In this document: positions 10,396 to 30,692 of the stretch, piece by piece
Layout: every line of letters starts with the position of its first letter
Numbering within the stretch: position 1 is the stretch's first letter
IMG/VR virus record: IMGVR_UViG_3300043568_001631
Coordinates: 1 to 30,887 of that record
Strand: one strand, 5' to 3'
DNA: 30,887 nt
Source of the DNA: a virus
Position numbers and translations under genes: made by a program
The notes under the pieces: generated by a model
Database searches by the model: none
Told to the model about the DNA's origin: nothing
The model's input: only the letters and a program-made list of their open reading frames with translations

Positions 10396-10411
10396 TTATT
10401 AATGAGGTAAA

Positions 10412-11167: not shown

Positions 11168-11464
11168 TTAGCGCATTAGTGCCAAAGCTCCTAATTCACT
11201 TAATGTAACTTTTACACCTTTGTCTTTACCATTAGAAGAAGAGTGGTATAAAACACCCGCATTAAATAATCTTTTAAAAACTTCACCTTTAACTAAATCA
11301 AAGCTAATTGTGTTACTTACGTTGTCCCATGAATCTATTACATATTCTGGTTCAATCCAGCCGTATCCGCTTTTAATGTTTTTAATTAAAGTTTCAACGT
11401 CTTTATCAAATTGCTTAACAGCGCCTTCATTAATATAGTCTTCGTATAGTTTAATATGTTTCAT
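11168..11464 (-). CDS. Small protein with capsid-targeting-like leader (98 aa)
   Basis: The first 13 residues read MKHIKLYEDYINE, nearly the same as the leaders of the genes at 27203 and 27591 and of the same type as the T4 capsid-targeting sequence (MKTYQEFIAE). The rest is unlike those proteins. It has a helical segment (KDVETLIKNIKSGYGWIEPE) and a C-terminal part that could be a small winged helix (VFKRLFNAGVLYHSSSNGKD). Prohead protease cleavage after I-N-E would leave about 85 residues. The gene is short and AT-rich, preceded by CATAAATAAAAGAATACAT. Packaging in the head is inferred from the leader, and the function of the mature part is unknown. Confidence 0.75.
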   Translation of the reverse strand: MKHIKLYEDYINEGAVKQFDKDVETLIKNIKSGYGWIEPEYVIDSWDNVSNTISFDLVKGEVFKRLFNAGVLYHSSSNGKDKGVKVTLSELGALALMR

Positions 11465-11478
11465 ATGTATTCTTTTAT

Positions 11479-11760
11479 TTATGGTATAACGGCAGTAACA
11501 GCCATTTCATCTTTAGGGTCTTCTGGTAAAGCTTGTTGTTCTATCTTAGAAACAAACACAGAATCAACTTCTTCAATTACATCACCCATTACATCATCAA
11601 GAATATCATACCAAACTTTTGCTTTAGTAAAAGATACTCTAGCAACTGTTCCGTATCGAGTTTCTTCACCTTCACCAGTTACGTATTGTACATTATCACC
11701 AACACCGTGTGCTGCTGGGAAATTAACTTCTTCGTTTAAAAATTCTGTATAATTCTTCAT
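11479..11760 (-). CDS. Small SH3-like protein with capsid-targeting-like leader (93 aa)
   Basis: Begins MKNYTEFLNEE, the compact form of the capsid-targeting-like leader seen elsewhere in the window, with a possible cleavage site after L-N-E. The mature part looks like a small beta barrel. It reads GVGDNVQYVTGEGEETRYGT, then VARVSFTKAKVWYDILDD, then VDSVFVSKIE, the strand pattern of SH3- or KOW-like modules. The start codon overlaps the stop of the amidoligase gene by one base (TAATG), so the two are translationally coupled. The role is unknown; an internal head protein is an inference from the leader. Confidence 0.72.
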   Translation of the reverse strand: MKNYTEFLNEEVNFPAAHGVGDNVQYVTGEGEETRYGTVARVSFTKAKVWYDILDDVMGDVIEEVDSVFVSKIEQQALPEDPKDEMAVTAVIP

Positions 11761-13166
11761 TATTTCTTTGCCTTTTTAATCTCTTCTTTTTTACCAGTTT
11801 CCTCGCTTTTAAACCCACCATCAGATTCAGATGGCTCAATTAGCTCAACGATCATGGTATCTTTGGAAACTTTTGCAAGTTTTCCAATTTCACCATTACG
11901 AATAACTCCTTTATTAACTTCACAGTTAATAATGAAACGTTTATTCTCAATGAAACAGTCATTACATACATTAGTAACGTGGAGTGGAGTATCAGCAATT
12001 TTAGAGAACTCAAAAACATTCTCTTTCATAGCCCATGAATTGGTAATTCTAGAGTTCTTAATAGTAGAGTTATAAAACCAAGAACGATCTATAACACCTT
12101 GTATTTCACAGTTTATAAATTCTATGTCTTCAACTTTACAGTTATTTAGTTTAGTATCTTGAAGTTGGAAACGTCCTAAGTCAGTATCATAATTAAACTT
12201 TCCTTTTGTCATTCCACCTGTAACCACAAGATCAAACAATTTTTCTCTTAAATTACCCCAAACAGCTGATAGAGTTTGATCATCTTTAATCATATCCATT
12301 GAAAGCTCAATGTCAGGATAGTTCTTTTTAAACTCGCCGTATTTAATAAATGATTTGTAAATGATTTCTTGTTTCTCCATCATACCTTTAAACTTAGCAC
12401 GGTCAACTTGTGAATATTGACCGTTAAAGTTTAATGTGTTAAACATGTGTAAAATGTAATAATCAACAAGACTAAGAATCTTACGAGCTTTTGTATGATA
12501 ATCTTTACCACCCATGTATCTGTACTCTAAGTATCCTTTCTCAAGTTTTAAGAAATTTACACCAAAGTATTTTTCATCAGGAGTTGCCATCGTTGAACGC
12601 GAAAATTCTTCTAATGAAGGTGAGTAAAACATAATCTTATTAGGTCTAAGATTTTTTATACTTCTTGCATAAACCGAATCTTTTCTTTGTGGGAATACAT
12701 CATAGATTCTTCCTTCATCAAAGTCAAGTATAAATTTAGCAACATTCATTTGAGGAATGCCAACTAATGTAGGTAATTTATTAGAATCAATACTAATGTT
12801 AGCATGTATAGAACATCTTTCATTTGTATAGCCGTTATCTTTAATCCACTCAAAAACTTTGATTAAAACATTACGGGCATCTTTGTAAGACATAGGGCCC
12901 GTAACAAGTTCCATCATATTTTTACCTCCTGAATAATCAGGCTCTAGTTTAAAGATATCAGCAGTAGGCGTAATTGGCGAATGATATAGAGGTTTTGGCT
13001 CTGTAATGTTACTAAGTGCCATCGGGATAACCACCCTCTTTTGGATATACTTAGCTAAACCGCGAGCGGTTTTTTCAATGGATAAATTTGAATAAAACTC
13101 AAATTCATATCCAATTTTTCCACCGTCAAGTATTTCAGCATCAGTATAAGACTTTTTAACTTTCAT
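11760..13166 (-). CDS. Probable amidoligase (GS-like COOH-NH2 ligase) fused to beta-helix
   Basis: 468-aa protein. Residues 1-230 carry the motif order of the amidoligase family of glutamine-synthetase-like ligases: G19-Y-E21-F-E23-F, E75-P-D77-x-S79, E86-L-V-T-G-P, H121-A-N, and V-N-x(8)-G-Y-L-E214-Y-R216-x-x-G-G. The acidic and His/Arg residues match those expected to bind Mg-ATP. Known members join a carboxylate to an amine, and several are predicted to modify peptides or cell-wall material. Residues about 335-455 show short pentapeptide-like beta-helix steps (TKLNNCKVEDIEFINCEIQG), and the tail is lysine-rich. It overlaps the start of the SH3-like gene by 1 base and the zinc-ribbon gene by 11. 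The substrate is unknown. Confidence 0.62.
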   Translation of the reverse strand: MKVKKSYTDAEILDGGKIGYEFEFYSNLSIEKTARGLAKYIQKRVVIPMALSNITEPKPLYHSPITPTADIFKLEPDYSGGKNMMELVTGPMSYKDARNVLIKVFEWIKDNGYTNERCSIHANISIDSNKLPTLVGIPQMNVAKFILDFDEGRIYDVFPQRKDSVYARSIKNLRPNKIMFYSPSLEEFSRSTMATPDEKYFGVNFLKLEKGYLEYRYMGGKDYHTKARKILSLVDYYILHMFNTLNFNGQYSQVDRAKFKGMMEKQEIIYKSFIKYGEFKKNYPDIELSMDMIKDDQTLSAVWGNLREKLFDLVVTGGMTKGKFNYDTDLGRFQLQDTKLNNCKVEDIEFINCEIQGVIDRSWFYNSTIKNSRITNSWAMKENVFEFSKIADTPLHVTNVCNDCFIENKRFIINCEVNKGVIRNGEIGKLAKVSKDTMIVELIEPSESDGGFKSEETGKKEEIKKAKK

Positions 13167-13296
13167 TGCGTTTCTTTGCCTTTAATTTTAATTCGTAATT
13201 TTCTATACACTCTTCGCATACTTCAGCTCCATCTGATGCTTTCTTAAGTTGACATGAGCAACCTAAATTTGTTTTACATCTTGGGCATTCTGCCAT
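13156..13296 (-). CDS. 46-aa zinc-ribbon protein
   Basis: Short gene found by reading the gap between its neighbours: ATG 13296-13294, stop TAA 13158-13156. The product starts MAECPRCKTNLGCSCQLKKA and ends in a basic helix (ENYELKLKAKKRNES). Cysteines at 4, 7, 13, 15, 27 and 30 form C-x2-C, C-x-C and C-x2-C knuckles, enough to bind one zinc and perhaps more. The start lies 1 base after the stop of the S1-domain gene and the end overlaps the amidoligase start by 11 bases, so all three are probably co-translated. The fold suggests nucleic-acid or ribosome binding, but the target is unknown. Confidence 0.8.
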   Translation of the reverse strand: MAECPRCKTNLGCSCQLKKASDGAEVCEECIENYELKLKAKKRNES

Positions 13297-13297
13297 C

Positions 13298-14503
13298 TTA
13301 CGATTCGCTTGGTAATGTTAAGAAAATTTTATCGTTAGCAACTCTTTCAATAGTGACCATAACTTCATCACCTATATTGAATCGTTTCTTTTTCATTTTA
13401 ATTTCTTTTTGGGAAATAAGTCCAACCATATCTTTTTGAATTTTAATTAATGCGCCGAATGGTTGAATCGACACAACTTCCCCACTACGAATAATTCCAA
13501 CGTTTTGATCTTTAAAGTCTTCAAGTTCTTTTCTACGGAACGAAGGATCTTCGTCAGATAAAATAATTTTCTTATCTGGAGTAATCTCTCTAATCCAGAA
13601 GTCAACTGTATCTCCAGGTTTAAACTCAAAGTTCTTAAACGATTCTTTAAGAGTTGGCGACATTTTGCTGCTGTGAAGTAATCCTGTAAAGATTTCATCA
13701 AACTCAACAAAGATACCGTATTTTGCAATACCCGTAACTGTCCCTGTGTATTTTGCATCAAGGTCAAGTTCTTCAATTTTTGTTGGAAGAACATACGCAA
13801 GATATTTCTTATAAGAAAATACGAATGTACTACTCTCTGTAAGATAATCTTCAACCATCACTGGAACTGTTTTGCCAATCATGCTATCAAAGTCTCGTAC
13901 CACATTAGCTGCCGCAAGAGATCCAGGAAGGAAACCGTTAATACCTTGAACCGCAATAATAAATCCACCTTGGTTCTTACCTGTAATAGTTCCGTAATAA
14001 GCTGTTGTAGGTTTTCCAATCTGACCAAAGAAATCTTCTTTGATATGAGAAAGCTGTCCTTCATATAGAGATACCTTAACATAAGGTTTAATCATCTCAA
14101 CTCTTACATGATACTTATTAGCACAGAAATGTTTTTTACCTTCTTCGGTTTGTAAACTTCCTACTAATTCTTCTTCAGTCATTCCTAACATTGTTAAGAA
14201 CTTCTTCTCTTGCTCCAGATTAACTGTTGCATCAATAAAACCTGTGAGTGTAACGTATAGTTCACGATTAGCGCCAACTCTTACATCTACAAGTTTATAA
14301 ACTTCACCTACTTTCGGCTCTTTATTTGCCGTTTCAGTCATTCCTTGATACAACGAAAGTAAATCTTCCGCGTATGATTCGTGACAATAAACACTATTGC
14401 CAGCTTTACTACTCAATTTTGAATTTGGTACTAACTTGCCGTTTGTTGCAAGGATTGCCCAATAGTTGTCATCAAAAATTTCGTCTTGTTTTTTTAGTTC
14501 CAT
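13298..14503 (-). CDS. Three-S1-domain RNA-binding protein, ribosomal protein S1-like
   Basis: 401-aa protein from ATG 14503. A longer in-frame start at 14602 is rejected because it would run into the upstream gene. Three S1 OB-fold domains are visible: residues 168-233 (AYYGTITGKNQGGFIIAVQG), 250-318 (KYTGTVTGIAKYGIFVEFDE with G-L-L-H-S-S-K) and 338-398 (SGEVVSIQPFGALIKIQ with V-G-L-I-S). A degenerate fourth may lie at 65-95. This arrangement is typical of bacterial ribosomal protein bS1, which brings mRNA to the 30S subunit. The gene has its own leader, with ATATATAC 13 bases before the ATG. It sits between baseplate genes and is followed by the zinc-ribbon gene. It could redirect host ribosomes or protect phage RNA; this is inference. 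Confidence 0.78.
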   Translation of the reverse strand: MELKKQDEIFDDNYWAILATNGKLVPNSKLSSKAGNSVYCHESYAEDLLSLYQGMTETANKEPKVGEVYKLVDVRVGANRELYVTLTGFIDATVNLEQEKKFLTMLGMTEEELVGSLQTEEGKKHFCANKYHVRVEMIKPYVKVSLYEGQLSHIKEDFFGQIGKPTTAYYGTITGKNQGGFIIAVQGINGFLPGSLAAANVVRDFDSMIGKTVPVMVEDYLTESSTFVFSYKKYLAYVLPTKIEELDLDAKYTGTVTGIAKYGIFVEFDEIFTGLLHSSKMSPTLKESFKNFEFKPGDTVDFWIREITPDKKIILSDEDPSFRRKELEDFKDQNVGIIRSGEVVSIQPFGALIKIQKDMVGLISQKEIKMKKKRFNIGDEVMVTIERVANDKIFLTLPSES

Positions 14504-14524
14504 ATTATTGCTTTTTGTATATAT
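14504..14524 (-). promoter_or_regulatory. Conserved leader ATATATAC-N13-ATG before the S1 gene
   Basis: Read on the minus strand, ATATATAC (14524-14517) lies exactly 13 bases before the ATG, and the last six bases before the start are AATAAT. The gene starting at 26236 has the same element at the same spacing. It lies in a 53-base spacer after the 894-aa gene. It may be a promoter -10-like element or a translation leader. Confidence 0.35.
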
Positions 14525-14556
14525 CCGCGATGTTTGATCATATATTTTTAAGGACT

Positions 14557-17241
14557 TTAACTTGTAAAGAATCCGTATGTGTTTTTTCCTTGCTTGCACC
14601 ATTTTGCAAGATATAATAAGTAGACAACATTTGTCATGGTTAATCTTTCATACACAGGTAAATCATCTTGTATAAAAGGTAAAAGTTGAGTCACGATAGG
14701 TCCTACATTAATTTTAACATTAGTCTTAACAGTTTGACCATTCTTTGTATATTTTAACGGAATGTTAACAGTTGGTATGTCAAGCGCGGAAACTTCAGAC
14801 GTGGTAATAGAATCAATATTTTTTGGTCCACGATTTCCTACTACAAACCAAGACTCTTTTGCTTTAACCATTCCTATCGGAAACGGCCAACCTGGGTTTA
14901 CTATATAGATAAAAGGTCCAGGACAAATACCGCACATAGTTATACCTATCACAATTAATGCAAGATCCGATGGTATAACTGCAAGAGGTGTCCAGATAAT
15001 AGGAAAAGGAATTTTAATCAATCCACTTGGTGTAGGTATAATGATACCAATTGGCCAGTATGTTGGTAAAAGATTAACAGTAGTTGCTCGCTTACAATAT
15101 TTTTTCCAATATGCAAGAGATGTTGCAGGTGGAGATTTTGGGTCTGGGTTTCCGTTTTCTTTATCATTATCAGCAGGAGCTCCAGCACCACCACCGCCAT
15201 CACTAAATGGCCAAGGAATGATTTTAGTTTTTTTACCTTCGTACTTCCCAACTGACGCAGGACCACCGCCAACCATTGCACAACCACTTGTAGTTATACT
15301 TTTAATGATATTAGGAAATGAATCTATGTATATCTCTGTTTCTACTATCTTTTTACGAATAATTACATATTCATCATGAAGTTTTTTAAAGGCTGCTTGC
15401 GCATCTTGGCGCTTCTTATCAAGTTCAGTAGTTTTATTTTTACCGTTTTGAATAAATATGGATCCGTCATTTAATAAATAGTAACCAAAGTTTTTACAAT
15501 ATTCTACAACTGCATCATAATTATCGGTAGCAAGTTTTTCTATTACTGCGGGTAAAGCTCTTTCTTGTAAACTTAAATCACCAGTTTTTTGTGTTACTGT
15601 ATCAGGATCGTCAGCCGGTTTAATTCCTTTAGAAACTGCTGTTGCTGTGTTAAAGAAATCATAACGAGTTTTCCACATGCTACCTGCCCATCTACGAGCA
15701 CCTCCTTTAACTTCAAAATCATAATCAGTTGGTGAAGTTTGAACTCTAATTAATGTGTTGTATGAAAAGATATCTTTTTGGTTTATATCAAAATGAATCC
15801 TTGGTTGTAAAGGGTTAGGAATATCAGTCCATCTATCAAAGTATCTACCCGCCAACAATATGTTATTTGTAAAAGGTTCTATGATAGCAGGTAATCCTGT
15901 TAGAATGTCAATATACGGAGAAGAAAGTTTATCACCTGACTTAAACGGTATGATTGTGTATTGTGATCCTTTAACACCTTTTGTATATGGCACAGAAGTA
16001 ACACTTGCATTAACTTCTTTAGTCTTATCTAATGCAAAGTAAGTAGGCTGTTCAGCTCTTACAGCATCAAGCTGTGATGTAACATTTCCTATTGATGTAA
16101 CAAGTTCAGTTTGTCTTGCAAGTAATTCAGTGATTTGCTTTTTCTTATTACTGTTATAATCATTAGGTAAGATAAACTTTTCAGTATTTGTAGTTGTAGT
16201 TGCAGCAACTCCTGCTTTTGCTTCTGTTGTAGTAGTAAAAGTATATGTATAAAACAAATCTTCTAATTTCTTTCTATTCTCAATGAACTCATCATTAAGA
16301 GTATTTCTTTGAGTTATAAGATCATTAAATTTTTGATAGTACGCAATGTATCCTTGGTACTGTCCTTCAAAAATTCCTAATATAGTTTTTGCATGCCAAA
16401 CTTGTGGCTCAAGCACTCCTAATCTTTCTTTAAGAAGAATCATTTCATCAATCTTCTTTTTAAGATTATCAGCTTCAGCAAAAACTTTTTTCGACGTATC
16501 TACAGGATTAGGTTCTTCTACTACAAATAACTGACTGTTTTTTACACCTTTATCTTTAGTGATTATCTTTTTAACTATACCATCAACTACAGGACAAGTA
16601 ACAGCAATTCCTCCAACTTCCATAATAGTTTCACCACAAGAAACTTTATCACCGTCATTCTTAATAACTTTTATTTCAGCATATTCGTTTCCGTTAGCTG
16701 TTAAACCGTCAAGACTAACTAATGTGACAAGAGTATATTTTGGTGGTGCTAATGCATCTTCTGGTTCTGGTTCTGGTTCTGGCTCAAAAGGAGTGTCAGG
16801 TAAAAACTCAGCAGGTAAAAATGGAGCAGGCGGTTTAATATCACACTTTGCATCAATAGCTTCGGATAACTGAATGTTATCTAAAATGTTAGGAACTGCG
16901 CTACGAATTTCACATTCATCAACCGCTTGTTTAGCAACCGCTTCAATCTCTTCTTTAGAATAGTTTGGTAGTATATTTGTTGTTGACGCTGGCGCTGATG
17001 TAAGAGGTGCAGGAATAACTGCGTTATTTCGAGTTGCTCCTGGGTTTAAACCTGCAGCATTTGCATTCGTACCAATTGTAGCTTTTACAATTTTACTATA
17101 TGAAGCATTAACCGCGTCTAAAAGTTCAGATGCAGATTTGCCTTCAAACCCAGTGGGCATGTAGGGAACTCCGTCTATAACTTTTGCTTTAGATTTTAGT
17201 GCTTCAACTATTGCTTGAGCTGCTGGTGATAGGTCTGCCAT
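14557..17241 (-). CDS. Large baseplate/hub-associated protein with lipoyl-like domain (894 aa)
   Basis: Modular protein following the spike gene after 9 bases. In order it has a helical N-terminus, a Pro/Glu linker near 136-161 with EPEPEPEPE, and a biotinyl/lipoyl-like hammerhead at about 187-243 (VSCGETIMEVGGIAVTCPV then VDGIVKKIITKDKGV). A coiled-coil-rich region (about 250-405) follows, then a middle domain, a Gly-rich linker (about 680-700) and a strongly hydrophobic Pro/Ile segment at about 725-790 (WPIGIIIPTPSGLIKIPFPI). The lipoyl-like part has G-G-I where a modifiable lysine would sit, so it is probably structural. Tail length-determination, spike-associated or membrane-contacting roles are possible. 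I do not recognise the complete architecture. Confidence 0.62.
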   Translation of the reverse strand: MADLSPAAQAIVEALKSKAKVIDGVPYMPTGFEGKSASELLDAVNASYSKIVKATIGTNANAAGLNPGATRNNAVIPAPLTSAPASTTNILPNYSKEEIEAVAKQAVDECEIRSAVPNILDNIQLSEAIDAKCDIKPPAPFLPAEFLPDTPFEPEPEPEPEDALAPPKYTLVTLVSLDGLTANGNEYAEIKVIKNDGDKVSCGETIMEVGGIAVTCPVVDGIVKKIITKDKGVKNSQLFVVEEPNPVDTSKKVFAEADNLKKKIDEMILLKERLGVLEPQVWHAKTILGIFEGQYQGYIAYYQKFNDLITQRNTLNDEFIENRKKLEDLFYTYTFTTTTEAKAGVAATTTTNTEKFILPNDYNSNKKKQITELLARQTELVTSIGNVTSQLDAVRAEQPTYFALDKTKEVNASVTSVPYTKGVKGSQYTIIPFKSGDKLSSPYIDILTGLPAIIEPFTNNILLAGRYFDRWTDIPNPLQPRIHFDINQKDIFSYNTLIRVQTSPTDYDFEVKGGARRWAGSMWKTRYDFFNTATAVSKGIKPADDPDTVTQKTGDLSLQERALPAVIEKLATDNYDAVVEYCKNFGYYLLNDGSIFIQNGKNKTTELDKKRQDAQAAFKKLHDEYVIIRKKIVETEIYIDSFPNIIKSITTSGCAMVGGGPASVGKYEGKKTKIIPWPFSDGGGGAGAPADNDKENGNPDPKSPPATSLAYWKKYCKRATTVNLLPTYWPIGIIIPTPSGLIKIPFPIIWTPLAVIPSDLALIVIGITMCGICPGPFIYIVNPGWPFPIGMVKAKESWFVVGNRGPKNIDSITTSEVSALDIPTVNIPLKYTKNGQTVKTNVKINVGPIVTQLLPFIQDDLPVYERLTMTNVVYLLYLAKWCKQGKNTYGFFTS

Positions 17242-17250
17242 GTTTCATGA

Positions 17251-18030
17251 TTAAGGTACTGTGACAGTCACAATGGTTGAGGTTGATGCTGTTTCCGCTG
17301 CAGCTGCCGCAGAGGCATTTGCTCCTGGCGAAGGAGGCCATTTAAGATCTACCGCCGCTGATAGAGATTTTAGGAATGCCCATAGCGGTTCTGCACCTAC
17401 TGCACTAAAATTACCAGTGGGACCTAATTGTGTTAATTGTGTTCCATTTATAATGCAAGTTTCAGCAGTTTCTTCAATTTTGGTAGCAGCGGTTACATTA
17501 ACGTTTGCTTGTGTAGTGATATTACAGTCCGGACCTATAAGTTCAATAATACTTTGTGAGTCAGCATGTTCTATTGTAATACTTACATCAGGATTAATCG
17601 TGATATGCGATTTCTTAAAGTAAATTTCAAATCCTTTAGATGGTGTATAGAAAACTCTCATCTGTTCATCAACATCATACATAAGAACGTGTGAGTTTAG
17701 ATAAGAATCACCAATTTCATTTTTAACTTCTTGGTTCATATACGCAATACTAAACCACTCTGGATTATAGAGTTCACCATCAGCAAAACTAAGTCTTACT
17801 ATTGCTTTATTTTTTGGTATTGATATATCGCCAAACCCTCCATCTTCACCTCCTCCAAATGTCTTAGACGAACCTGGTGATGCCCAAGGAATATCTCCAT
17901 CAGGAATATCATCAAAGATACCAAAAACTTTAACTCGGCAACGCCCTTCTTGAAGCGGGTCATTATTGTCTACGACTTCGCCGTAGAATATCTTTCCAAT
18001 TATCTCTTCTTTACTTAATCCTTTTATCAT
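17251..18030 (-). CDS. Baseplate spike, gp5/gpV-like OB-fold protein
   Basis: 259-aa protein with a clear gp5/gpV OB domain. N-D-P-L-Q-E-G-R-C-R-V-K-V-F-G-I-F-D (residues about 23-40), then D-I-P-W-A-S-P-G, then F-G-D-I-S-I-P-K-N and V-R-L-S-F-A-D-G-E-L-Y-N-P-E-W-F. Residues about 140-205 form short beta steps (INPDVSITIEHADSQSIIEL and on), suiting the trimeric beta-helix needle. The C-terminus is Ala/Thr-rich. In this family the trimer forms the membrane-piercing spike under the hub. T4 gp5 carries a lysozyme domain and this one does not, so cell-wall digestion must come from another protein. Its ATG overlaps the stop of the 646-aa gene by one base. Confidence 0.82.
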   Translation of the reverse strand: MIKGLSKEEIIGKIFYGEVVDNNDPLQEGRCRVKVFGIFDDIPDGDIPWASPGSSKTFGGGEDGGFGDISIPKNKAIVRLSFADGELYNPEWFSIAYMNQEVKNEIGDSYLNSHVLMYDVDEQMRVFYTPSKGFEIYFKKSHITINPDVSITIEHADSQSIIELIGPDCNITTQANVNVTAATKIEETAETCIINGTQLTQLGPTGNFSAVGAEPLWAFLKSLSAAVDLKWPPSPGANASAAAAAETASTSTIVTVTVP

Positions 18031-19970: not shown

Positions 19971-19985
19971 GGTTCATTATTATTT

Positions 19986-22159: not shown

Positions 22160-22161
22160 AA

Positions 22162-24288: not shown

Positions 24289-24306
24289 TTACTTAAATGA
24301 TTTTCT

Positions 24307-24321
24307 TAGACTATAAGTCTA
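24307..24321 (-). promoter_or_regulatory. TAGACT-ATA-AGTCTA palindrome upstream of baseplate operon
   Basis: Inverted repeat of 6 + 6 bases with a 3-base centre, in the 77-base leader before the 708-aa gene. No T-run follows it on the minus strand, so it does not look like a terminator. It could be an operator or an mRNA hairpin. ATATATAC (about 24337-24330) lies just upstream and may be a promoter element. Confidence 0.35.
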
Positions 24322-24323
24322 TT
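24312..24323 (-). promoter_or_regulatory. AATAGACTTATA element, copy 1
   Basis: The minus-strand 12-mer AATAGACTTATA recurs exactly at 24370-24359, just across the stop of the 143-aa gene, and with one change (AATAGACCTATA) at 27217-27206, directly before the start at 27203. All three copies are in or at intergenic spacers. Its distance to the start codon differs between copies, so a promoter or operator is more likely than a ribosome site. Confidence 0.35.
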
Positions 24324-24358
24324 TTAAGTATATATCATACAAGCAAAATCTAAGGTAA

Positions 24359-24370
24359 TATAAGTCTATT
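24359..24370 (-). promoter_or_regulatory. AATAGACTTATA element, copy 2
   Basis: Identical to copy 1, placed 47 bases further upstream, overlapping the TAG stop (24368-24366) of the 143-aa gene. Together the two copies bracket the candidate promoter of the baseplate operon. Confidence 0.3.
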
Positions 24371-24797
24371 CAGTTTCTTCTAGCCAAGTGACTGGAACTG
24401 TGATGCATTCTATAATATGCACTTTCTTAATAGACGGAAAGAATAAGATTTCATCAAAGAGTTCGTATAGTTCTTCATTCTTCCCTTTTTCTGTTAGGAG
24501 TATTACACGGCTAACTACCGTATTGTCTTGGCAAAAATGGATTAACCCACGAATAATTTCATCATTAAGATTTTGGTTAACGTAAATAATTGACTGCATC
24601 TTTTTGCCTGAGGCAGTCGACGTTATGATTTTCTTGATTTTCTGATTAACAATAAATGAAGCATAATCATCCACCTTTCCAACTTCATACCCAAGTTCAA
24701 CAACAACTTCATCGACGACAATGATTTGTTGTTTTCTTAAGTTAAGGAAAGCTTTTTTTAATTTGCTTTTATCTTCTATTGTTATGTATAAATTCAT
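24366..24797 (-). CDS. Unrecognised alpha/beta protein (143 aa)
   Basis: Alternating hydrophobic strands and helices (QQIIVVDEVVVELGYEVGK, KKIITSTASGKKMQSIIYVN, VSRVILLTEKGKNEELYELF) suggest a compact Rossmann-like fold. No catalytic motif or Walker A motif is intact; T-S-T-A-S-G-K-K is only loosely P-loop-like. No signal peptide or membrane segment is present. It starts one base after the stop of the 108-aa gene and is the last gene before the baseplate operon leader. An assembly or regulatory role is possible, but I do not recognise the family. Confidence 0.7.
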   Translation of the reverse strand: MNLYITIEDKSKLKKAFLNLRKQQIIVVDEVVVELGYEVGKVDDYASFIVNQKIKKIITSTASGKKMQSIIYVNQNLNDEIIRGLIHFCQDNTVVSRVILLTEKGKNEELYELFDEILFFPSIKKVHIIECITVPVTWLEETE

Positions 24798-25124
24798 TTA
24801 TTTGTTTTCTTGAAACGGGATTCTTTTTGCGTTTTTCTTTTCCCAACGATCTTGTTCAACTTTAAGTACTGCATCTGCCGCAGCGGTTGCTTCTTCATCA
24901 TTCATGCCTTCAGATTGAAAACGCTCAATCATTTTAGTGTAGCGAAGTGTTTCTTGTTCAATTTCATATTGTTCACGAGCTTGAACATTTTGTAAATGGA
25001 TTTGCTTTCCTGAAGCAGCACGTCTTTTTCGTAATTCTGCTTTATCTGCCTCAGACATATTCTGATACATTTTCAGTAACCCTGTTTTTTTCTCAAGTTC
25101 TCTTCTTTGTCTTCTGTTATACAT
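24798..25124 (-). CDS. Basic, coiled-coil-like protein (108 aa), unrecognised
   Basis: Highly charged, almost entirely helical protein. It starts MYNRRQRRELEKKTGLLKMY and continues with a long Glu/Gln/Arg-rich helix (NVQAREQYEIEQETLRYTKM). The pattern fits a coiled coil or a nucleic-acid-binding helix and gives no enzyme motif. The start overlaps the end of the Nudix gene by 8 bases and the stop directly abuts the 143-aa gene, so the three are probably one translational unit. A scaffold or assembly role is a guess. Confidence 0.7.
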   Translation of the reverse strand: MYNRRQRRELEKKTGLLKMYQNMSEADKAELRKRRAASGKQIHLQNVQAREQYEIEQETLRYTKMIERFQSEGMNDEEATAAADAVLKVEQDRWEKKNAKRIPFQENK

Positions 25125-25659
25125 GACCTGTTGATTTTAAGTAAAAGTAATTAAATAGTCTAAGAAACGCAGCTAATGCAAGAGTCTCTTCTGAAACTAA
25201 AATTTCATTAGATGGCATCATAATTAATTCTGACAGTTCTTCCTTTTTTGAACCATCACCTTCCGGTTTTGATTGTGGTAATCCAGTGACATCTACAGCA
25301 AATGTAGGTACTTGTCTATCACTGTCTTTATATGGAAAAAAGTTACCCAAATAAATCCATCTTTGATTCTCTTCAGGCGGTGTAATGAACCCACCTTCTT
25401 CAGTTAGTTCACGTTTTGCTGTTGATAATAAATCTTCATCTTCGTTATCAATGGTTCCTGTAATAAGTGTATGACAAAAATCACCTTCTCTTAAAGTGTT
25501 ATATTCTTTAAGAAGTCCAATTTTACTAATCATACCCGTGTCATCGGTTGTAAACGGCATAACAGCAACTGACATAGTTTTCATCTTAATCTTTTGATGA
25601 CCTTCTATCTCGATTACATCAAAGTTTTTAAAGCTCTTTAATGTTTTAAACTCTTTCAT
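25117..25659 (-). CDS. Nudix hydrolase
   Basis: 180-aa protein with a Nudix box at residues 68-91. R83-E84-L85-T86-E87-E88-G89-G90-F91 fits R-E-U-x-E-E-x-G-U, and E75 lies at the usual distance before it. Glycine 68 is one residue further away than in the consensus (G-x6-E instead of G-x5-E). Strands before and after (TMSVAVMPFTTDD, FPYKDSDRQVPTFAVDVTGL) suit the Nudix fold. Members hydrolyse nucleoside diphosphates linked to another group, such as NAD, ADP-ribose, capped RNA or damaged dNTPs; the substrate here cannot be told. The N-terminus MKEFKTLKSF resembles the leader of the packaged-protein candidates but has no N-E cut site. It overlaps both neighbours (14 and 8 bases). Confidence 0.78.
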   Translation of the reverse strand: MKEFKTLKSFKNFDVIEIEGHQKIKMKTMSVAVMPFTTDDTGMISKIGLLKEYNTLREGDFCHTLITGTIDNEDEDLLSTAKRELTEEGGFITPPEENQRWIYLGNFFPYKDSDRQVPTFAVDVTGLPQSKPEGDGSKKEELSELIMMPSNEILVSEETLALAAFLRLFNYFYLKSTGHV

Positions 25660-26236
25660 AATTTTCTAAATTTTCTTGTGTTTCTTCAACAATCTCCGAA
25701 ATCTCCGGAATCTCAAAGATATCCGATGTTAGTTCAATTGCAATTTGTCTTTTTAGTTCTTCAACCATTTCTGGGGTTATGCTATTTTGTAAATAGCTAA
25801 GAACTTGATCTTGCCCATCGTCAAAAGATGCTGCCAACACTTTTATTAAATCAAAAGGTGGGACATTAATTTTTAATGATACGCCAACAGTTTTTTCAGT
25901 TTTCTTGGAATTAGTAAGTAATGCTTCTAATGGGCTAACTGTTGGAGCTGTAGGCTGTATAACTTGCGCAGAGCTATCTGGCTGTTGTGTATGTGGTAAA
26001 TCATTAGTTTGCACCACACGCAAAGGTTCTGGCGCAATATCATTAAGCATAAAAAGATTTTCTGGACTGTCATCAAGAACTTCTATTATGTAATCACCAA
26101 TCAGGTCATTATTACATCTACTGCCATCAGTAAAAGTAATAAAGTCAATCCCGCCATCATCAACAATGGTACCATCAGATTTTACAACATCTCCGGCTTT
26201 TTCACCTTTGATCCACTGATATGTTTTAAGACTCAT
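25646..26236 (-). CDS. Conserved-looking phage protein (196 aa), unrecognised
   Basis: Start placed at ATG 26236 (MSLKTYQWIKGEKAGDVV), because the longer in-frame reading from 26410 would overlap the upstream gene, and because the ATATATAC-N13-ATG leader points to this codon. The N-terminal part is a small beta domain (DGGIDFITFTDGSRCNNDLI), then a Pro/Gln/Ser linker (about 80-100). A helical C-terminal domain follows (VGVSLKINVPPFDLIKVLAA, then ITPEMVEELKRQIAIEL), ending in an acidic tail. This P-P-x-D-L-x-K-V-L and helix-helix layout is reminiscent of phage tail or hub assembly factors, but I cannot assign a family. It overlaps the Nudix start by 14 bases. Confidence 0.68.
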   Translation of the reverse strand: MSLKTYQWIKGEKAGDVVKSDGTIVDDGGIDFITFTDGSRCNNDLIGDYIIEVLDDSPENLFMLNDIAPEPLRVVQTNDLPHTQQPDSSAQVIQPTAPTVSPLEALLTNSKKTEKTVGVSLKINVPPFDLIKVLAASFDDGQDQVLSYLQNSITPEMVEELKRQIAIELTSDIFEIPEISEIVEETQENLENYERV

Positions 26237-26257
26237 ATTATTTGTTTTAGTATATAT
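26237..26257 (-). promoter_or_regulatory. Conserved leader ATATATAC-N13-ATG before the 196-aa gene
   Basis: On the minus strand, ATATATAC (26257-26250) is followed by TAAAACAAATAAT and the ATG. It has the same element, spacing and final AATAAT as the leader of the S1-domain gene at 14503. It partly lies in the 25-base spacer after the 108-aa gene that ends at 26262. Confidence 0.35.
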
Positions 26258-26261
26258 TTCA

Positions 26262-26588
26262 CTAGATTTCAAGGTAGTTTCTGTATTCTCGGTGGTATTC
26301 GGCCATCCATTCAACTGGGAATCCTTGCGCTGCCCACGAGAGGTACTCTTGCCTAAAATTTTCCAAAACATATTCGATATGGTGTTCATAGTCTCCGTGT
26401 GAAAATTCATTTAAAGAAGTAAGAGGTATTCTGAACGTATGTTGAGTTCCTTTAACTCGCCAAAAGAAATTCTTCTGACGGGAAATATCTTTATATCCGT
26501 ACTCAACTTCCAAAGGTGTCCAACCGTAAGGTTTAACTGACATTTGCCCTTTGCCATACAGTTCTCCAAAATCTTGATGAAATGGCAT
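26262..26588 (-). CDS. Unrecognised aromatic-rich protein (108 aa)
   Basis: Soluble protein rich in Tyr, Trp, Phe and His (MPFHQDFGELYGKGQMSVKP, then RQKNFFWRVKGTQHTFRIPL). The first half appears beta-rich and the second half is a long amphipathic helix (HHIEYVLENFRQEYLSWAAQ). There is no membrane segment or known motif. It follows the 76-aa gene by 3 bases. Overlapping readings in the other minus frames (26411-26638 and the extension of the 196-aa gene) are rejected, because this frame has the better spacing and a complete, balanced protein. Confidence 0.65.
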   Translation of the reverse strand: MPFHQDFGELYGKGQMSVKPYGWTPLEVEYGYKDISRQKNFFWRVKGTQHTFRIPLTSLNEFSHGDYEHHIEYVLENFRQEYLSWAAQGFPVEWMAEYHREYRNYLEI

Positions 26589-26591
26589 TCT

Positions 26592-26822
26592 TTAATTTTC
26601 TTCAGGTTGTGCAAAGTTTTCTTTTGGAGTAGTCTCAACAGCTAATAGACACATGTCTAATATTGTTCCTCTACTTTCACCATGTAATTCCATAAGAGCT
26701 TCTATATCTTGTTTCATCATACGAATTGCTCCGGCGCCATCTTCTCCATTATTAATTTGGATAATCACGCTATCCCATTCATTAACAACTTCTGGTGTTA
26801 TGTTTTCAGTATTTTCTGACAT
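26592..26822 (-). CDS. Small acidic protein (76 aa), unrecognised
   Basis: Acidic, helical protein (MSENTENITPEVVNEWDSVI, then GAGAIRMMKQDIEALMELHG) with no Cys-pair, signal peptide or membrane segment. It heads a new transcription unit: the terminator of the upstream gene lies about 60 bases before it, and the 105-base spacer contains TATAAATA. It may be a small regulator or assembly factor, but nothing in it identifies a function. Confidence 0.68.
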   Translation of the reverse strand: MSENTENITPEVVNEWDSVIIQINNGEDGAGAIRMMKQDIEALMELHGESRGTILDMCLLAVETTPKENFAQPEEN

Positions 26823-26841
26823 AATAGTATATTTTTTGTTT

Positions 26842-26849
26842 TATTTATA
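26842..26849 (-). promoter_or_regulatory. TATAAATA, candidate late-type promoter element
   Basis: TATAAATA is the T4 late promoter core. It lies 19 bases before the ATG at 26822, within the 105-base spacer that follows a terminator. The octamer also occurs inside coding sequence in this AT-rich window (near 5755 and 18331), so the call rests on position only. Confidence 0.3.
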
Positions 26850-26879
26850 TTCACTAAGTGCAAGATAGTTTTTCGTCAT

Positions 26880-26908
26880 AAAAAAAGTTGGACAAACTGT
26901 CCAACTTT
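26880..26908 (-). terminator. Rho-independent terminator after the 91-aa gene
   Basis: Minus-strand stem AAAGTTGGACA / TGTCCAACTTT, 11 base pairs with a 3-base loop, followed by a run of seven T. It starts about 20 bases after the stop at 26928 and ends transcription of the 27203 unit. Confidence 0.85.
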
Positions 26909-26927
26909 CTGTCCAAGGTTTATGTTT

Positions 26928-27203
26928 TTACCAATAGTATGGTTTGGGATAATCTTTTAGAATTAGTTTTTTGTATCCCATCTTTTGAAGCTTTGAAATT
27001 AAATCTTCAATATCATATTCAGATGGACCATTTTCTATTTTCTTTTCCATGCAATATTGATCAACCCAATATTCTAAATCTTCTGCATTGGAATTTTTAT
27101 CAGGGAACTCTTTAGCAAACGCTTTTGCTAAGCCGTCTACATTTAATTCGTCCCAGTCTTTACCTTCATTCATAAAAGATTCAAAAGTTTTAAAATGTTT
27201 CAT
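26928..27203 (-). CDS. Small protein with capsid-targeting-like leader (91 aa)
   Basis: Begins MKHFKTFESFMNEGK, one of the clearest copies of the shared leader; cleavage after M-N-E would leave about 78 residues. The mature part is acidic and helical (GLAKAFAKEFPDKNSNAEDL, then DIEDLISKLQKMGYKKLILK) and ends in an aromatic cluster (PKPYYW). It resembles no other protein in the window apart from the leader. The last gene before a strong terminator, it has AATAGACCTATA directly before the start codon. I infer a packaged head protein; its function is unknown. Confidence 0.78.
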   Translation of the reverse strand: MKHFKTFESFMNEGKDWDELNVDGLAKAFAKEFPDKNSNAEDLEYWVDQYCMEKKIENGPSEYDIEDLISKLQKMGYKKLILKDYPKPYYW

Positions 27204-27205
27204 AT

Positions 27206-27217
27206 TATAGGTCTATT
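27206..27217 (-). promoter_or_regulatory. AATAGACCTATA element, copy 3
   Basis: One base different from the two copies near 24318 and 24365. It is only 2 bases before the ATG at 27203, in the 25-base spacer between two genes with capsid-targeting-like leaders. Confidence 0.3.
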
Positions 27218-27228
27218 TTTATTATCTG

Positions 27229-27591
27229 CTAATTGTCGTAGCTCCATTTACCGGTGGCTACATCATATATGTTATGTCCTTCAAGCCACACACGTTTCAC
27301 ATCTGGATATTTTTTCTTAATCATAGCTAACACAGCGTCAAAGTTATTTCTAACTTCGTTGCGAAGAACCGTCATAAGTGGGTAACTCATTCGGTTAGGA
27401 CCTAGCACGTTAAAAGATTTTTGATTAACGGCGTAGTTAATTGATTTGACTAAAGAAGCGTATCTGTCTCCTCCTATAAGTTTTACAAAAGCATCAACAT
27501 CTTGTTTAGGCAATTTCTTAAATTCGTCTTCAAAGATAGCGTCATCATTGCTTTCATTCAGAAATGACTCATAAGTTTTAATGTGTTTCAT
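27229..27591 (-). CDS. Protein with capsid-targeting-like leader (120 aa)
   Basis: Start placed at the second ATG (27591), giving MKHIKTYESFLNESNDDA; the ATG at 27600 would add M-E-R in front of a leader that is otherwise constant. Possible prohead protease site after L-N-E. The mature part is alpha/beta (LPKQDVDAFVKLIGGDRYAS, then FDAVLAMIKKKYPDVKRVWL) and ends in GHNIYDVATGKWSYDN. It has no recognised catalytic motif. The A-rich leader GGATAAATAGTCTATAAAATAAA precedes it. Packaging is inferred from the N-terminus and the function is unknown. Confidence 0.75.
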   Translation of the reverse strand: MKHIKTYESFLNESNDDAIFEDEFKKLPKQDVDAFVKLIGGDRYASLVKSINYAVNQKSFNVLGPNRMSYPLMTVLRNEVRNNFDAVLAMIKKKYPDVKRVWLEGHNIYDVATGKWSYDN

Positions 27592-27613
27592 TCTTTCCAT
27601 TTTATTTTATAGA

Positions 27614-29065
27614 CTATTTATCCACATTATTCAGCTTCTTTTTTTCATTTCGTTTTCGAGATGCTTCACGTTGTTTCTCTTTGTGTGCTTCCCATTTAAT
27701 AGGATCTGCCATAAGTCTAGCCTTTGCAGCTGCGGATTGTTCTCTTTGTTTTTTAAGATATGCCGCAAGTAAAACTGGGTCCGCGTAAATTTTAGCTTTT
27801 AGAGCAGCAGACTGTGCTCTTTGCTTTTCTCGGTACTCAGCATATAGAACAGGATCTGCTTTAATCTTTTCCATAAGTAAGCGTGATGCCTCACGATTTT
27901 TTTCTCGAGCTAACTCAACTGATTTTTCTAATTCATCAGAATAGTCAAGCATCTCCGGAAATTCTTTAATGTATGCCTCACGTTCAGATTTTGTCATTCT
28001 ACCATATTTACTAATCTCAAGCTGTAACCAATCAGATTTACGAATACTTACACCTATGGATACTTCTTGACCAACACCCCAGCCAGAATAAGATATGATT
28101 TTACCATAGTCTATAATTTCATCAAGTGTAGCTCCAGTGATCTTAAAGAGTTTACATTTTGGATTTTCATCTTTGCCATCACCAAAGATTAGTAAATCAT
28201 CAAACTTAGAATAATCATAATAACTTAATATCTGAACCGCAAGAAAGATGTTTGAAAGTTCATCTTTATTACGTATACCTTGATGTATTTTTGTTATAAG
28301 TTCATTCTTATATGTAAGGAACGTTTCAGGGTGCTGTGATAAAGCCATGATAAACTTTTCAGAATCTGAATATGATAAACCATTTTGTATAAGTGGGTAT
28401 ATGTGTGCTTTTAAATAAGAAGATGACAGTGTACGAAAATCCGGCTCAATGTTAAACATCTTGTTAATTTTATCCAAAGCATCTAAACCATTAGAAACTT
28501 TGCCAATTCCAACAAGCCTTCCCATTTTGCCTTTTACCTCAATTCCTCTTTCAGTATCAGGATCCCAAAGATCACCTTTAGTACCTTTTTGAAATGTAGT
28601 GAAACAAGATAACATTAATTCACTTGGACCCATATCACCAGGTTGCTCTTTAAATAATTCTTCAAAGAACTCTGAGGCAAAAAAGTTATAATGATTAGCT
28701 AGAACTGATATGATATCCACAGGTTCACCGCTTAACGATTCAGAAGAAATGTATGCAGGATTTTTAATCATATCCGTTACCAAGTCAAGATTTTCTATAC
28801 CACCATTATAGAATGCTTTGATTAAGCGAGCAATTATTTTGGTTCCTGTAGTTCTTGCAGATGGCGGTAGCCTATCAAATATAATGTCAAGAATTTCTGC
28901 GAAGCGGTCTTCACAAAGAACGTTCTTAATAGCATTAAGTTTCTCAATGTAGCGTTCATCATTGACGTTTAAAACACCGAGCAATACTTTTTTATTGCTA
29001 TTTGGTTTCTTAAGGTAAATGTTAGAGCCTTCTGCAGTAATCTCATGATATGTATTAATACTCAT
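27614..29065 (-). CDS. Probable PD-(D/E)XK nuclease with C-terminal basic repeats (483 aa)
   Basis: Residues 145-185 show the core of the PD-(D/E)XK nuclease superfamily. G-P-S-E149-L lies on a helix, then K-G-D165-L-W, then I-E176-V-K178-G-K-M-G-R-L. D165, E176 and K178 are the expected metal-binding and catalytic residues, and this E-V-K-G-x-x-G-R-L form is typical of phage enzymes. Residues about 378-477 are Lys/Arg-rich repeats likely to bind DNA. The N-terminus MSINTYHEITAEGS loosely resembles the T4 capsid-targeting sequence MKTYQEFIAE, but the cut site would be T-A-E rather than I-x-E. Host-DNA degradation or competitor exclusion are possible roles. A structural or packaging nuclease cannot be excluded. 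Confidence 0.65.
   Translation of the reverse strand: MSINTYHEITAEGSNIYLKKPNSNKKVLLGVLNVNDERYIEKLNAIKNVLCEDRFAEILDIIFDRLPPSARTTGTKIIARLIKAFYNGGIENLDLVTDMIKNPAYISSESLSGEPVDIISVLANHYNFFASEFFEELFKEQPGDMGPSELMLSCFTTFQKGTKGDLWDPDTERGIEVKGKMGRLVGIGKVSNGLDALDKINKMFNIEPDFRTLSSSYLKAHIYPLIQNGLSYSDSEKFIMALSQHPETFLTYKNELITKIHQGIRNKDELSNIFLAVQILSYYDYSKFDDLLIFGDGKDENPKCKLFKITGATLDEIIDYGKIISYSGWGVGQEVSIGVSIRKSDWLQLEISKYGRMTKSEREAYIKEFPEMLDYSDELEKSVELAREKNREASRLLMEKIKADPVLYAEYREKQRAQSAALKAKIYADPVLLAAYLKKQREQSAAAKARLMADPIKWEAHKEKQREASRKRNEKKKLNNVDK
27635..27859 (-). repeat. Three 25-residue basic repeats in the nuclease-like protein
   Basis: Residues 403-427, 428-452 and 453-477 each start A-D-P-[VI] and contain a K-x-K-Q-R-x-x-S or E-K-Q-R-x-x-S core. 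The first opens ADPVLYAEYREKQRAQSAAL, the second ADPVLLAAYLKKQREQSAAA, the third ADPIKWEAHKEKQREASRKR. A weaker fourth unit precedes them at 378-402. Such repeats look like modular DNA-binding helices. Confidence 0.78.
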
Positions 29066-29117
29066 AGGTATATAATTTAACGGATAATAAAAGTGTCTTT
29101 AATGTCATTAATATTGC

Positions 29118-29438
29118 TTATTGTTTAACCTGTAGATACTTGTTAAACAGATTTTTAGCATGTTTCCAATCTCTTGGTTTAACATCCATAACCCAGTTAG
29201 GAATATACACTCGACCTTCAGATCCGCTAGAGAAACGGATAATCCATCCAGTGTATTTAGAATTGGCAACCTCATCAGTACTGTCAATGTTATGAGATGC
29301 CCATTGATAAACTCCGTCAATGAATCCACCGCAAATACTTGCGTATGAAGAATCCCCGATAGTAGAGAAACGATTATAGATTGCCATGTTAAATCCGATG
29401 TTTCCGTCCTGCTCTAAGTAATCTTGCATTGATTTCAT
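29118..29438 (-). CDS. Unrecognised small protein (106 aa)
   Basis: Start placed at ATG 29438 (MKSMQDYLEQDGNIGFNM), because an earlier in-frame ATG at 29489 lies inside the terminator hairpin of the preceding gene. The start M-K-S-M-Q-D-Y-L-E-Q weakly recalls the capsid-targeting-like leader, but no N-E or I-x-E site is present. The rest is beta-rich (YASICGGFIDGVYQWASHNI, then YTGWIIRFSSGSEGRVYIPN), perhaps a small barrel, with a C-terminal helix. No family recognised. Confidence 0.7.
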   Translation of the reverse strand: MKSMQDYLEQDGNIGFNMAIYNRFSTIGDSSYASICGGFIDGVYQWASHNIDSTDEVANSKYTGWIIRFSSGSEGRVYIPNWVMDVKPRDWKHAKNLFNKYLQVKQ

Positions 29439-29476
29439 ATTGTGTATAGTTTTATATTGATAGTTAAAATTAATAC

Positions 29477-29507
29477 AAAAAACCCACAAATAAAAATTTG
29501 CGGGTCT
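29477..29507 (-). terminator. Rho-independent terminator after the 387-aa gene
   Basis: Minus-strand stem ACCCGCAAAT / ATTTGTGGGT (one G-T pair), loop TTTT, followed by six T. It starts about 22 bases after the stop at 29529. The next gene therefore needs its own promoter; AATATAAAACTATACAC before 29438 is a candidate. Confidence 0.88.
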
Positions 29508-29528
29508 AAAGTTATTAACAATTTGCTT

Positions 29529-30692
29529 TTATTTTTTCAAGAGTTTATCCCATTTAGCAATACCTCGTTGAACATTTTTATTTCCTTGGGCCCAGATACC
29601 AAATCTAGCATTCTTAAATCCAAAGCTTCCGCCTTGACCGTTTCTAAAAGAAACATAAATGTAAGGCCAGTATTCATTAGAATCATTCATTGCTAATTTA
29701 CCACCTGTAAGTACAGGATTGTAAATCTGATGTCCTGTTGGTACTACTTCATAAGCACCTTCAAATTTGTCGCCAAAACGTTCAGATGCATTTTTAAATT
29801 GCATTTCTCCTTGCATCATAAGCTGAATGTTATTTGGACTCCAGTTCTTATTACCAGGTCTTGCATCAACACCAAACATAGCACGAATACCCAAGTCAAT
29901 ATGCTGCTGCGGTATCTTAATAGCAAATTCATCACCACCTTTTAGTTCATCACCAACATGCTTACGAATAAGTTCTAAGAATTCTTTTGCAAATGGATGA
30001 TCTCTTAAATTATCAAGACCGCCATACTGTTGAAAGTCAGCAGCGCTTTTACCGTCTTTATGTGAGATATAAATTGGTGGGTTACTCTGAATAACAAATA
30101 AGAAATCTGCTTTAGGAACACCAGGCACTTTATCAACATCTTCAAGATCAACTTGAGTAATGTTTCCACCGCCAGAATATAATTCACCCATTAAGACAAG
30201 ATGAATTGCTGAGTTTGCTTGTTTAAGTTTTTGTAAACTACCACGAATAGCATCAAGAGCCATAGTTTCTTTCTTTAAACTATCTTTAGGCGACCAGAAA
30301 ATAGCTTCCGGTTTTTCGTCCATTAGTAGTAAAACCAAACAAGCAGCTTTTTCAAATCTGTTAGTAGGTGCTTTGCCGTCTACTAAACTTGTAAGTATTT
30401 CGTCTAAAGATTTCTTTGCGTCTTTAGCATATTCTGCAATTTTACCACCTTGCATAGCTCTTACTTTAACAATAGTATCATATACTGTTACATAAGTTGT
30501 TTCACTAAACAGACCGGTGTATGCTTGGCCTAATTCAGCTGCCATTTCAGTTCTTGCAAAATTCTTAAGTTCAGGAAGACGCCCTTTTAAGTTTTTCTGA
30601 AAGTCTGTAAATATTTTCTTTAAAACTTCAGGTGAACTTCCTTCAAAAAGAAAATCCTCATTGATGAAATCTACGTAATTTAAAAGACTCAT
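29529..30692 (-). CDS. Candidate nuclease-like protein with capsid-targeting-like leader (387 aa)
   Basis: Starts MSLLNYVDFINEDFLFEG, with the leader core [YF]-x-[DE]-F-I-N-E and an I-N-E cut site after residue 12. After a helical N-terminal half, residues 193-225 read K-A-D196-F-L-F-V, then PPIYISHKDGKSAADFQQYG. A D followed 14 residues later by S-x-K on a strand, and then a Q-x-Y-G-G motif, is like degenerate PD-(D/E)XK enzymes (restriction-endonuclease fold). The usual acidic residue before x-K is Ser here, so activity is uncertain. The C-terminus is aromatic and glycine-rich (WPYIYVSFRNGQGGSFGFKN) and ends basic. It is followed by a strong terminator. I infer a packaged and possibly ejected protein. 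Confidence 0.5.
   Translation of the reverse strand: MSLLNYVDFINEDFLFEGSSPEVLKKIFTDFQKNLKGRLPELKNFARTEMAAELGQAYTGLFSETTYVTVYDTIVKVRAMQGGKIAEYAKDAKKSLDEILTSLVDGKAPTNRFEKAACLVLLLMDEKPEAIFWSPKDSLKKETMALDAIRGSLQKLKQANSAIHLVLMGELYSGGGNITQVDLEDVDKVPGVPKADFLFVIQSNPPIYISHKDGKSAADFQQYGGLDNLRDHPFAKEFLELIRKHVGDELKGGDEFAIKIPQQHIDLGIRAMFGVDARPGNKNWSPNNIQLMMQGEMQFKNASERFGDKFEGAYEVVPTGHQIYNPVLTGGKLAMNDSNEYWPYIYVSFRNGQGGSFGFKNARFGIWAQGNKNVQRGIAKWDKLLKK

Follow-up and report, generated by a model that had tools for sequence, protein, structure and literature searches.

A shared N-terminal leader in huge T4-related phages is a probable capsid-targeting sequence resembling the prohead scaffold

We analysed IMG/VR record IMGVR_UViG_3300043568_001631, whose 30,887 bases (the window) represent part of the genome of a huge phage related to T4. 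Its chief genes make up a T4-like tail and baseplate cluster on the - strand. Five of its proteins, all encoded on the - strand, begin with a common N-terminal leader of the form M-x(2-6)-[FY]xx[FY]-[ILM]-N-E (Table 1), which a preliminary description of the window had taken for a capsid-targeting sequence. All five open reading frames (ORFs) are present at the starts given in that description, although the start of leader protein 4 is an internal ATG in an ORF that opens at 27600. The pattern [FY]xx[FY][ILM]NE occurs at 5/26 gene starts in the window, against a mean of 0.04 and a maximum of 3 when residues 2-20 are shuffled (20,000 trials). The preliminary description had also held that the five proteins are otherwise unlike and that their leaders differ at synonymous positions, and both statements were borne out: BLAST finds no pairwise link among the post-leader bodies, and the codons for the residues common to the leaders vary synonymously.

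Several homologues of these proteins carry the leader as well. Leader protein 1 has a leader-bearing orthologue in contigs G001 and G002 (91% identity) and a weak relative in G005. A homologue of leader protein 2 (L458, 51%) has a leader of similar type but greater length, MKHIKLFENFLNE/E (here and below, a slash marks the predicted cut), and its body picks up directly past the site. Leader protein 4 has a homologue at 39% in G003 and G006; none was found for leader protein 3 among the fetched relatives. Pfam and PHROGs searches with all five proteins gave a single convincing match, that of the body of leader protein 5 to phrog_13937, a family of unknown function. A homologue of this protein (L457, 62%) retains the leader as MQLLSYTDFINE (YTDFINE) with synonymous changes, and its distant relatives in cyanophage, DLP6 and phiM12 all lack it; a search for the protein in other large genomes gave no match. 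An AlphaFold2 prediction of leader protein 5, run with one relative, had a mean predicted local distance difference test score (pLDDT) of 35 and was unusable. A sixth protein, of 483 amino acids, may begin with a degenerate leader, and its distant relative in G004 (22% identity) opens with a full one, MSLIDYKTFLSE/S.

Table 1. Leader proteins and reference genes of the window, with example leader loci in phage Lak-B5.
Feature	Position	Strand	Remarks
Leader protein 1, 98 amino acids	11168..11464	-	Leader MKHIKLYEDYINE/G at 11426-11464
Leader protein 2, 93 amino acids	11479..11760	-	Leader MKNYTEFLNE/E at 11731-11760
Leader protein 3, 91 amino acids	26928..27203	-	Leader MKHFKTFESFMNE/G at 27165-27203
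Leader protein 4, 120 amino acids	27229..27591	-	Leader MKHIKTYESFLNE/S at 27553-27591
Leader protein 5, 387 amino acids	29529..30692	-	Leader MSLLNYVDFINE/D at 30657-30692
483-amino-acid protein	27614..29065	-	Possible degenerate sixth leader MSINTYHEITAE/G (start MSINTYHEITAEG); outside the count of five
gp6-like baseplate wedge protein	8331..10022	-	phrog_219, E 6e-22; anchor for finding relatives; no leader
gp25-like gene (10033-10395, phrog_43) and conserved 243-amino-acid gene	10033..11143	-	One edge of the first variable leader slot (11168-11760)
Amidoligase-like protein	11760..13166	-	Other edge of the first leader slot; no leader
gp5-spike-like gene	17251	-	Assigned by reading of the sequence
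Lak-B5 (MK250024.1) leader loci, examples	227676, 95230, 193461, 525775 and 60707, 219735, 321415, 495891		Two repeated leaders, described in the text

Relatives of the window were located by tblastn with the gp6-like protein, which matches LR756500 (462 kb, 41% identity), Lak phages (34%) and LR756501 (735 kb, 34%) over 95-98% of its length, as well as other huge phages and jumbo phages of Tenacibaculum, Flavobacterium, Chryseobacterium and Sphingomonas. The nearest large contig among the matches listed is G019, a 482-kb IMG/VR record with 47% identity in gp6. For the majority of the window's baseplate genes, homologues occur in these genomes (LR756500, Lak and LR756501). Because the gp6 relatives include these four groups of jumbo phages, the host is probably a Bacteroidota bacterium; a gp6 search of genome contigs for a host link gave no match.

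We derived a broader leader pattern, M-x(2-7)-[FY]xx[FY][ILMV]xE, from the window and the T4 propeptide and applied it to independent whole or partial genomes. It matches 22/667 protein starts in LR756500 (shuffle mean 0.8), 50/1002 in LR756501 (shuffle mean 1.5; 56 when later ATGs in the first 40 codons are admitted), 25/140 in IMG/VR contig G005 (shuffle mean 0.25) and 12/85 in G002 (shuffle mean 0.1), while LR756502, LR745206, LR756504 and G008 have 5-7 leaders per 160-200 kb (shuffle 0.2-0.4). The genome-wide occurrence that the preliminary description had proposed to look for is thus seen in the relatives, at 22-56 proteins per large genome. After internal methionines, used as a control, the pattern appears in 0-0.26% of cases. 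In T4, the positive control, it matches 3/255 ORFs, namely ipII, ipIII and gp61.1; the last of these, an uncharacterised protein (NC_000866.4, 18966-19130), opens with the capsid-targeting-like leader MKTFKEFIKE/D. A position profile of [ILMV]xE that assumes no leader model shows a clear excess in LR756501, LR756502, G002 and G005 and a weak one or none elsewhere.

The proteins that carry the leader are diverse. Single-linkage clustering of the post-leader parts divides 165 leader proteins, those of the window included, into 125 unrelated families, and the 27 leader proteins of G005 form 27 separate families. Paralogous tagged genes do occur, with a family of 9 in LR756501 and one of 7 in LR756500. 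Core genes are significantly depleted of leaders in LR756501 (0/108, p 0.004); in LR756500 (2/108) the depletion is not significant. Second candidate protease sites shortly past the leader exceed background in LR756500 and G005, and since they do not in LR756501 or G002 we make no general claim about them.

In the relatives, a gp21-type (S77) protease gene adjoins a gp23-type capsid gene. The protease is fused to a C-terminal scaffold domain built of 14-residue repeats, [FY]xx[FY][ILV]AE, that contain the aromatic pair of the leader. In LR756501 this domain reads ...DYSNYIAETLDKSIDFSEYIAENVDNTIKYSEYIAENLDK..., its 14-residue repeat showing [IVL]xE and the same spacing of aromatics as the leader; the protein has 14 strict leader motifs, the highest count among 1002 proteins, and shuffles of the domain reach 2. 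Two or more strict motifs are present in 92 of 96 proteases taken from other records, all but pT24, PTm1, MA9V-1 and L191, and 82 of the 96 have five or more; shuffles give 2-3 at the most. An IMG/VR scan with a DNA version of the leader pattern gave at least 120 matches, and 33 contigs were followed up. Among the matches listed, 18 of these 33 leader-selected contigs have a gp6 relative and 18 have an S77 match, yielding 17 full-length proteases, all of which (17/17) carry the array. AlphaFold2 modelled the protease domain of one relative's protease-scaffold protein at moderate confidence and the array as long helices at low confidence, which is suggestive only. Small proteins that bear, or largely consist of, scaffold repeats also occur outside the head cluster (LR756501.1, 619760-620383; LR745206.1, 460435-460686), and are perhaps another way into the prohead core.

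The other end of the leader resembles putative cleavage sites elsewhere in the head genes. Capsid proteins of the lineage conserve LINE/A at residues 5-7 and NLNE/S at residues 42-44, the latter maintained next to a local insertion. In the protease, [ILV]NE[SAG] stands right past the catalytic domain in 61/66 distinct sequences, and [ILV]NE[SANG] lies close to the end in 57/66; the background for [ILV]NE[SAG] is 0.016 per 60 residues. These conserved capsid and protease sites have no aromatic pair. In the leaders, position P2 is N in 90/164 and P1' is chiefly S, A or G, whereas in the scaffold repeats P2 is A, G or S in 403/437 and P1' is chiefly N. Given that the aromatic pair is missing from the capsid and protease sites and that the repeats differ at P2 and P1', the leader reads, by sequence, as a combination of both motifs: it joins the aromatic pair of the scaffold repeats to the [LI]NE/[SAG] of those sites.

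This division coincides with roles established in T4, whose propeptides direct proteins into the core, from which proteolysis frees them (PMC9026906). Of the ten residues in the T4 IPIII propeptide, mutagenesis assigned targeting mainly to 4 and 7 and processing to 8 and 10 (PMC9026906). In MKTYQEFIAE, residues 4 and 7 are the two aromatics and residues 8 and 10 are I and E. All five window leaders have the aromatic targeting residues and the [IL]xE processing residues correctly spaced. The capsid-targeting proposal of the preliminary description thus gains support from the wide occurrence of the leader in relatives, from the S77 protease there and from this match to the mutational roles in IPIII. 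The resemblance to the scaffold repeats and to the capsid and protease sites is an addition to that proposal.

Other lineages appear to use other leaders. The window-type leader is absent from Sphingomonas phage PAU (JQ362498.1), where about 19 proteins (100248-120537 and elsewhere) instead open MK[TS][LI]xxL[YF]E/[SA], often followed by KLNE/A. Five of these tagged genes directly adjoin the protease gene, ahead of a likely scaffold gene, so named from its position and its acidic, helical make-up, and the capsid gene. Beyond N-termini, [KQE]L[YF]E[SA] is found in only three PAU proteins: at the C-terminus of the protease, in the likely scaffold and in one other; the leader motif KLYE/S thus recurs in both protease and likely scaffold. 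Phage Lak-B5 has two repeated N-terminal leaders, KKALYE/SIMKSVS and MNKxIKxL[VM]E/SLFDD, on about a dozen proteins (example loci in Table 1). We had considered that phages without the array carry no leaders, an idea contradicted by the [ILMV]xE profile, which brought the distinct dialects of PAU and Lak to light. A second class, MK[HY]LxxYK[IL]FE/S, marks 29/303 genes in LR756502.1 1-200000 (L243-L252; shuffle 0.6), 23 in LR756501 and 9 in LR745206. LR756501.1 (loci L116-L152) additionally contains the octapeptide DPYGEE-x-W 103 times, in 86/1002 proteins and often at the extreme C-terminus; 100/103 copies lie within same-strand called genes and their third codon positions vary. It occurs in no other fetched genome and is an unexplained short linear motif.

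Leader genes sit in slots between conserved tail genes, and the content of the slots varies among contigs. Gene order around the gp25-like and 243-amino-acid genes is kept in G001-G006. The amidoligase-like gene at the other edge of the first slot, whose product has a weak N-terminal Amidoligase_2 match (E 0.011, below the cut-off), is 73-97% identical in G001-G006 and lies within the tail cluster of relatives including LR756500 and LR756501. Between these edges the window has leader proteins 1 and 2, G002 the orthologue of leader protein 1 and a different leader protein, G003 one unrelated leader protein, and G005 two others. The bodies of tagged proteins in relatives give matches to polyphosphate kinase 2 (PPK2), RNA ligase, 2'-5' RNA ligase/Acb1-like fused to the exonuclease RNase_T, and methyltransferases, and also to HNH, DHH, ATP-grasp, nucleotidyltransferase and LRR models; these labels are family names taken from model matches. 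Elsewhere in the window's baseplate cluster, the product of 13298-14602 (- strand) resembles by eye a ribosomal-S1-type repeat protein, and it is conserved in LR756500, LR756501, Lak-B5 and LR745206.

The best explanation of these data as a whole, to which we assign a probability of about 0.82, is a T4-type capsid-targeting system with greatly expanded cargo in huge T4-related phages. That the leader itself is a capsid-targeting sequence appears highly probable; that it targets by mimicking the scaffold is less secure, though more likely than not. Its docking half would be the [FY]xx[FY] pair, which recurs at 14-residue intervals, in as many as 14 copies, along the protease-fused scaffold. Since the aromatic pattern is repeated in the scaffold domain, a tagged protein could join the prohead core as though it bore one scaffold repeat. 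The release half would be [LIM]NE/[SAG], a putative prohead-protease site of the type that both capsid protein and protease conserve. As the head matures, the protease would cut past E and destroy the scaffold; the cargo would be set free inside the head among the packaged DNA and could accompany it into the host. Docking to the scaffold, cleavage, presence in the virion and ejection are steps that we infer, as we do the possession of like head genes (S77 protease, scaffold and capsid) by the window's own phage. More broadly, we lean towards a scaffold-mimic code, in which the core would be made of tandem docking units, one N-terminal unit with a protease site would bring dozens to perhaps a hundred diverse enzymes and small proteins of each phage into the head, tag and core dialects (the window type, KLYES in PAU, others in Lak) would match within each lineage, and cargo would turn over rapidly in fixed slots.

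Several observations weigh against this explanation. The scaffold repeats are unlike the leaders at P2 (A/G/S versus N) and at P1', the array of LR756500 is degenerate (2 strict motifs, 11 loose), and leaders make up only 2-3% of genes in some array-bearing genomes. A scaffold counterpart of the MK[HY]LxxYK[IL]FE/S class was searched for and none was found. The preliminary description had tied its proposal to a gp21-like prohead protease; the large relatives have one, and no Peptidase_S77 or prohead protease was found in the window record, a 31-kb tail-gene fragment without head genes. The support for capsid targeting is, moreover, at the level of sequence.

The most serious alternative, which we nonetheless consider unlikely, is that the motif is only a recognition site for the prohead protease of the lineage, which would prefer aromatics at P7 and P4; leaders and repeats would then be alike because both are cut, and targeting would proceed through some other contact. 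The T4 capsid-protein site FGSFLTE/A does fit the full pattern, and leaders and repeats both end in [ILV]xE. However, the lineage's own capsid and protease sites (LINE/A, NLNE/S, VNE/S) dispense with the aromatic pair, and the T4 IPIII mutations separate an effect on targeting, at the aromatic positions 4 and 7, from one on processing, at 8 and 10 (PMC9026906). It is considerably less probable that the leader directs proteins not to the head but elsewhere in the infected cell, such as a replication compartment or the host membrane. Several tagged families (PPK2, RNA ligase, methyltransferases) would be equally plausible in the host cytoplasm, yet the prohead scaffold repeats the leader motif, as do the protease and likely scaffold in PAU, the end of the leader matches the capsid and protease sites, and the leader agrees, residue for residue, with a capsid-targeting sequence of proven function; it also has acidic residues and lacks the hydrophobic stretch of membrane signals. 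Finally, the leaders might be relics of recent duplication or of a recombination hotspot, the peptide itself having no function. Recombination could spread leaders, and some tagged genes are indeed paralogous (the families of 9 and 7 above), but 125 unrelated families, residues kept while synonymous codons differ, and a 62%-identical homologue that retains its leader already largely refute this very improbable account.

Capsid targeting by a scaffold-like leader would extend a mechanism known in outline. T4 IPI, IPII, IPIII and Alt likewise carry a short N-terminal propeptide on unrelated accessory proteins, processed in T4 by gp21 (PMC9026906), with aromatics at both targeting positions and I/L and E at the processing positions, and T4 shares the S77 protease and gp23-type capsid with the relatives. 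Unlike the phages described here, T4 has three internal proteins and Alt, the pattern being found in 3 T4 ORFs versus 22-56 per large relative, and its scaffold gp22 is encoded by a separate gene and has no motif array, whereas in the relatives protease and scaffold are fused and the motif is repeated. In phage P1, N-terminal residues of DarB are enough to direct a reporter into the head, and the cargo counters host restriction; P1 is, however, reported to have no separate scaffold, and the signal is described for DarB, with no shared array-type tag (PMC9024508). SPN3US and phiKZ have many head proteins, some with N-terminal propeptides cut after E by an S77-type prohead protease, and proteins are ejected into the host, but these propeptides are long (>100 residues) and on few proteins (PMC5694885). 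A gp22-like scaffold has not been confirmed for any giant phage (PMC5694885). In Tenacibaculum phages PTm1 and pT24, too, the capsid gene neighbours a gene for a protease that is fused to a scaffold or carries a scaffold annotation ("prohead core scaffolding protein and protease"). Unlike the relatives here, these phages have no [FY]xx[FY][ILV]xE array (0-1 motifs), and the leader matches only 1/279 genes in PTm1. In the open-access literature that we searched, neither leader nor array is described in huge phages; the scale, the tag-matching scaffold array and the dialects are thus undescribed there.

The genes of huge phages are mostly of unknown function, and a readable tag would sort dozens per genome as virion-borne. 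Proteins for early anti-defence and take-over are likely to be found in virion cargo. The tag and array also propose a gp22-like scaffold for giant phages, suggest how a scaffold core may be recognised by a short N-terminal peptide, and would yield new targeting peptides with which to load proteins into large capsids. They further suggest how huge phages fill each particle with many different proteins, possibly for delivery into bacteria.

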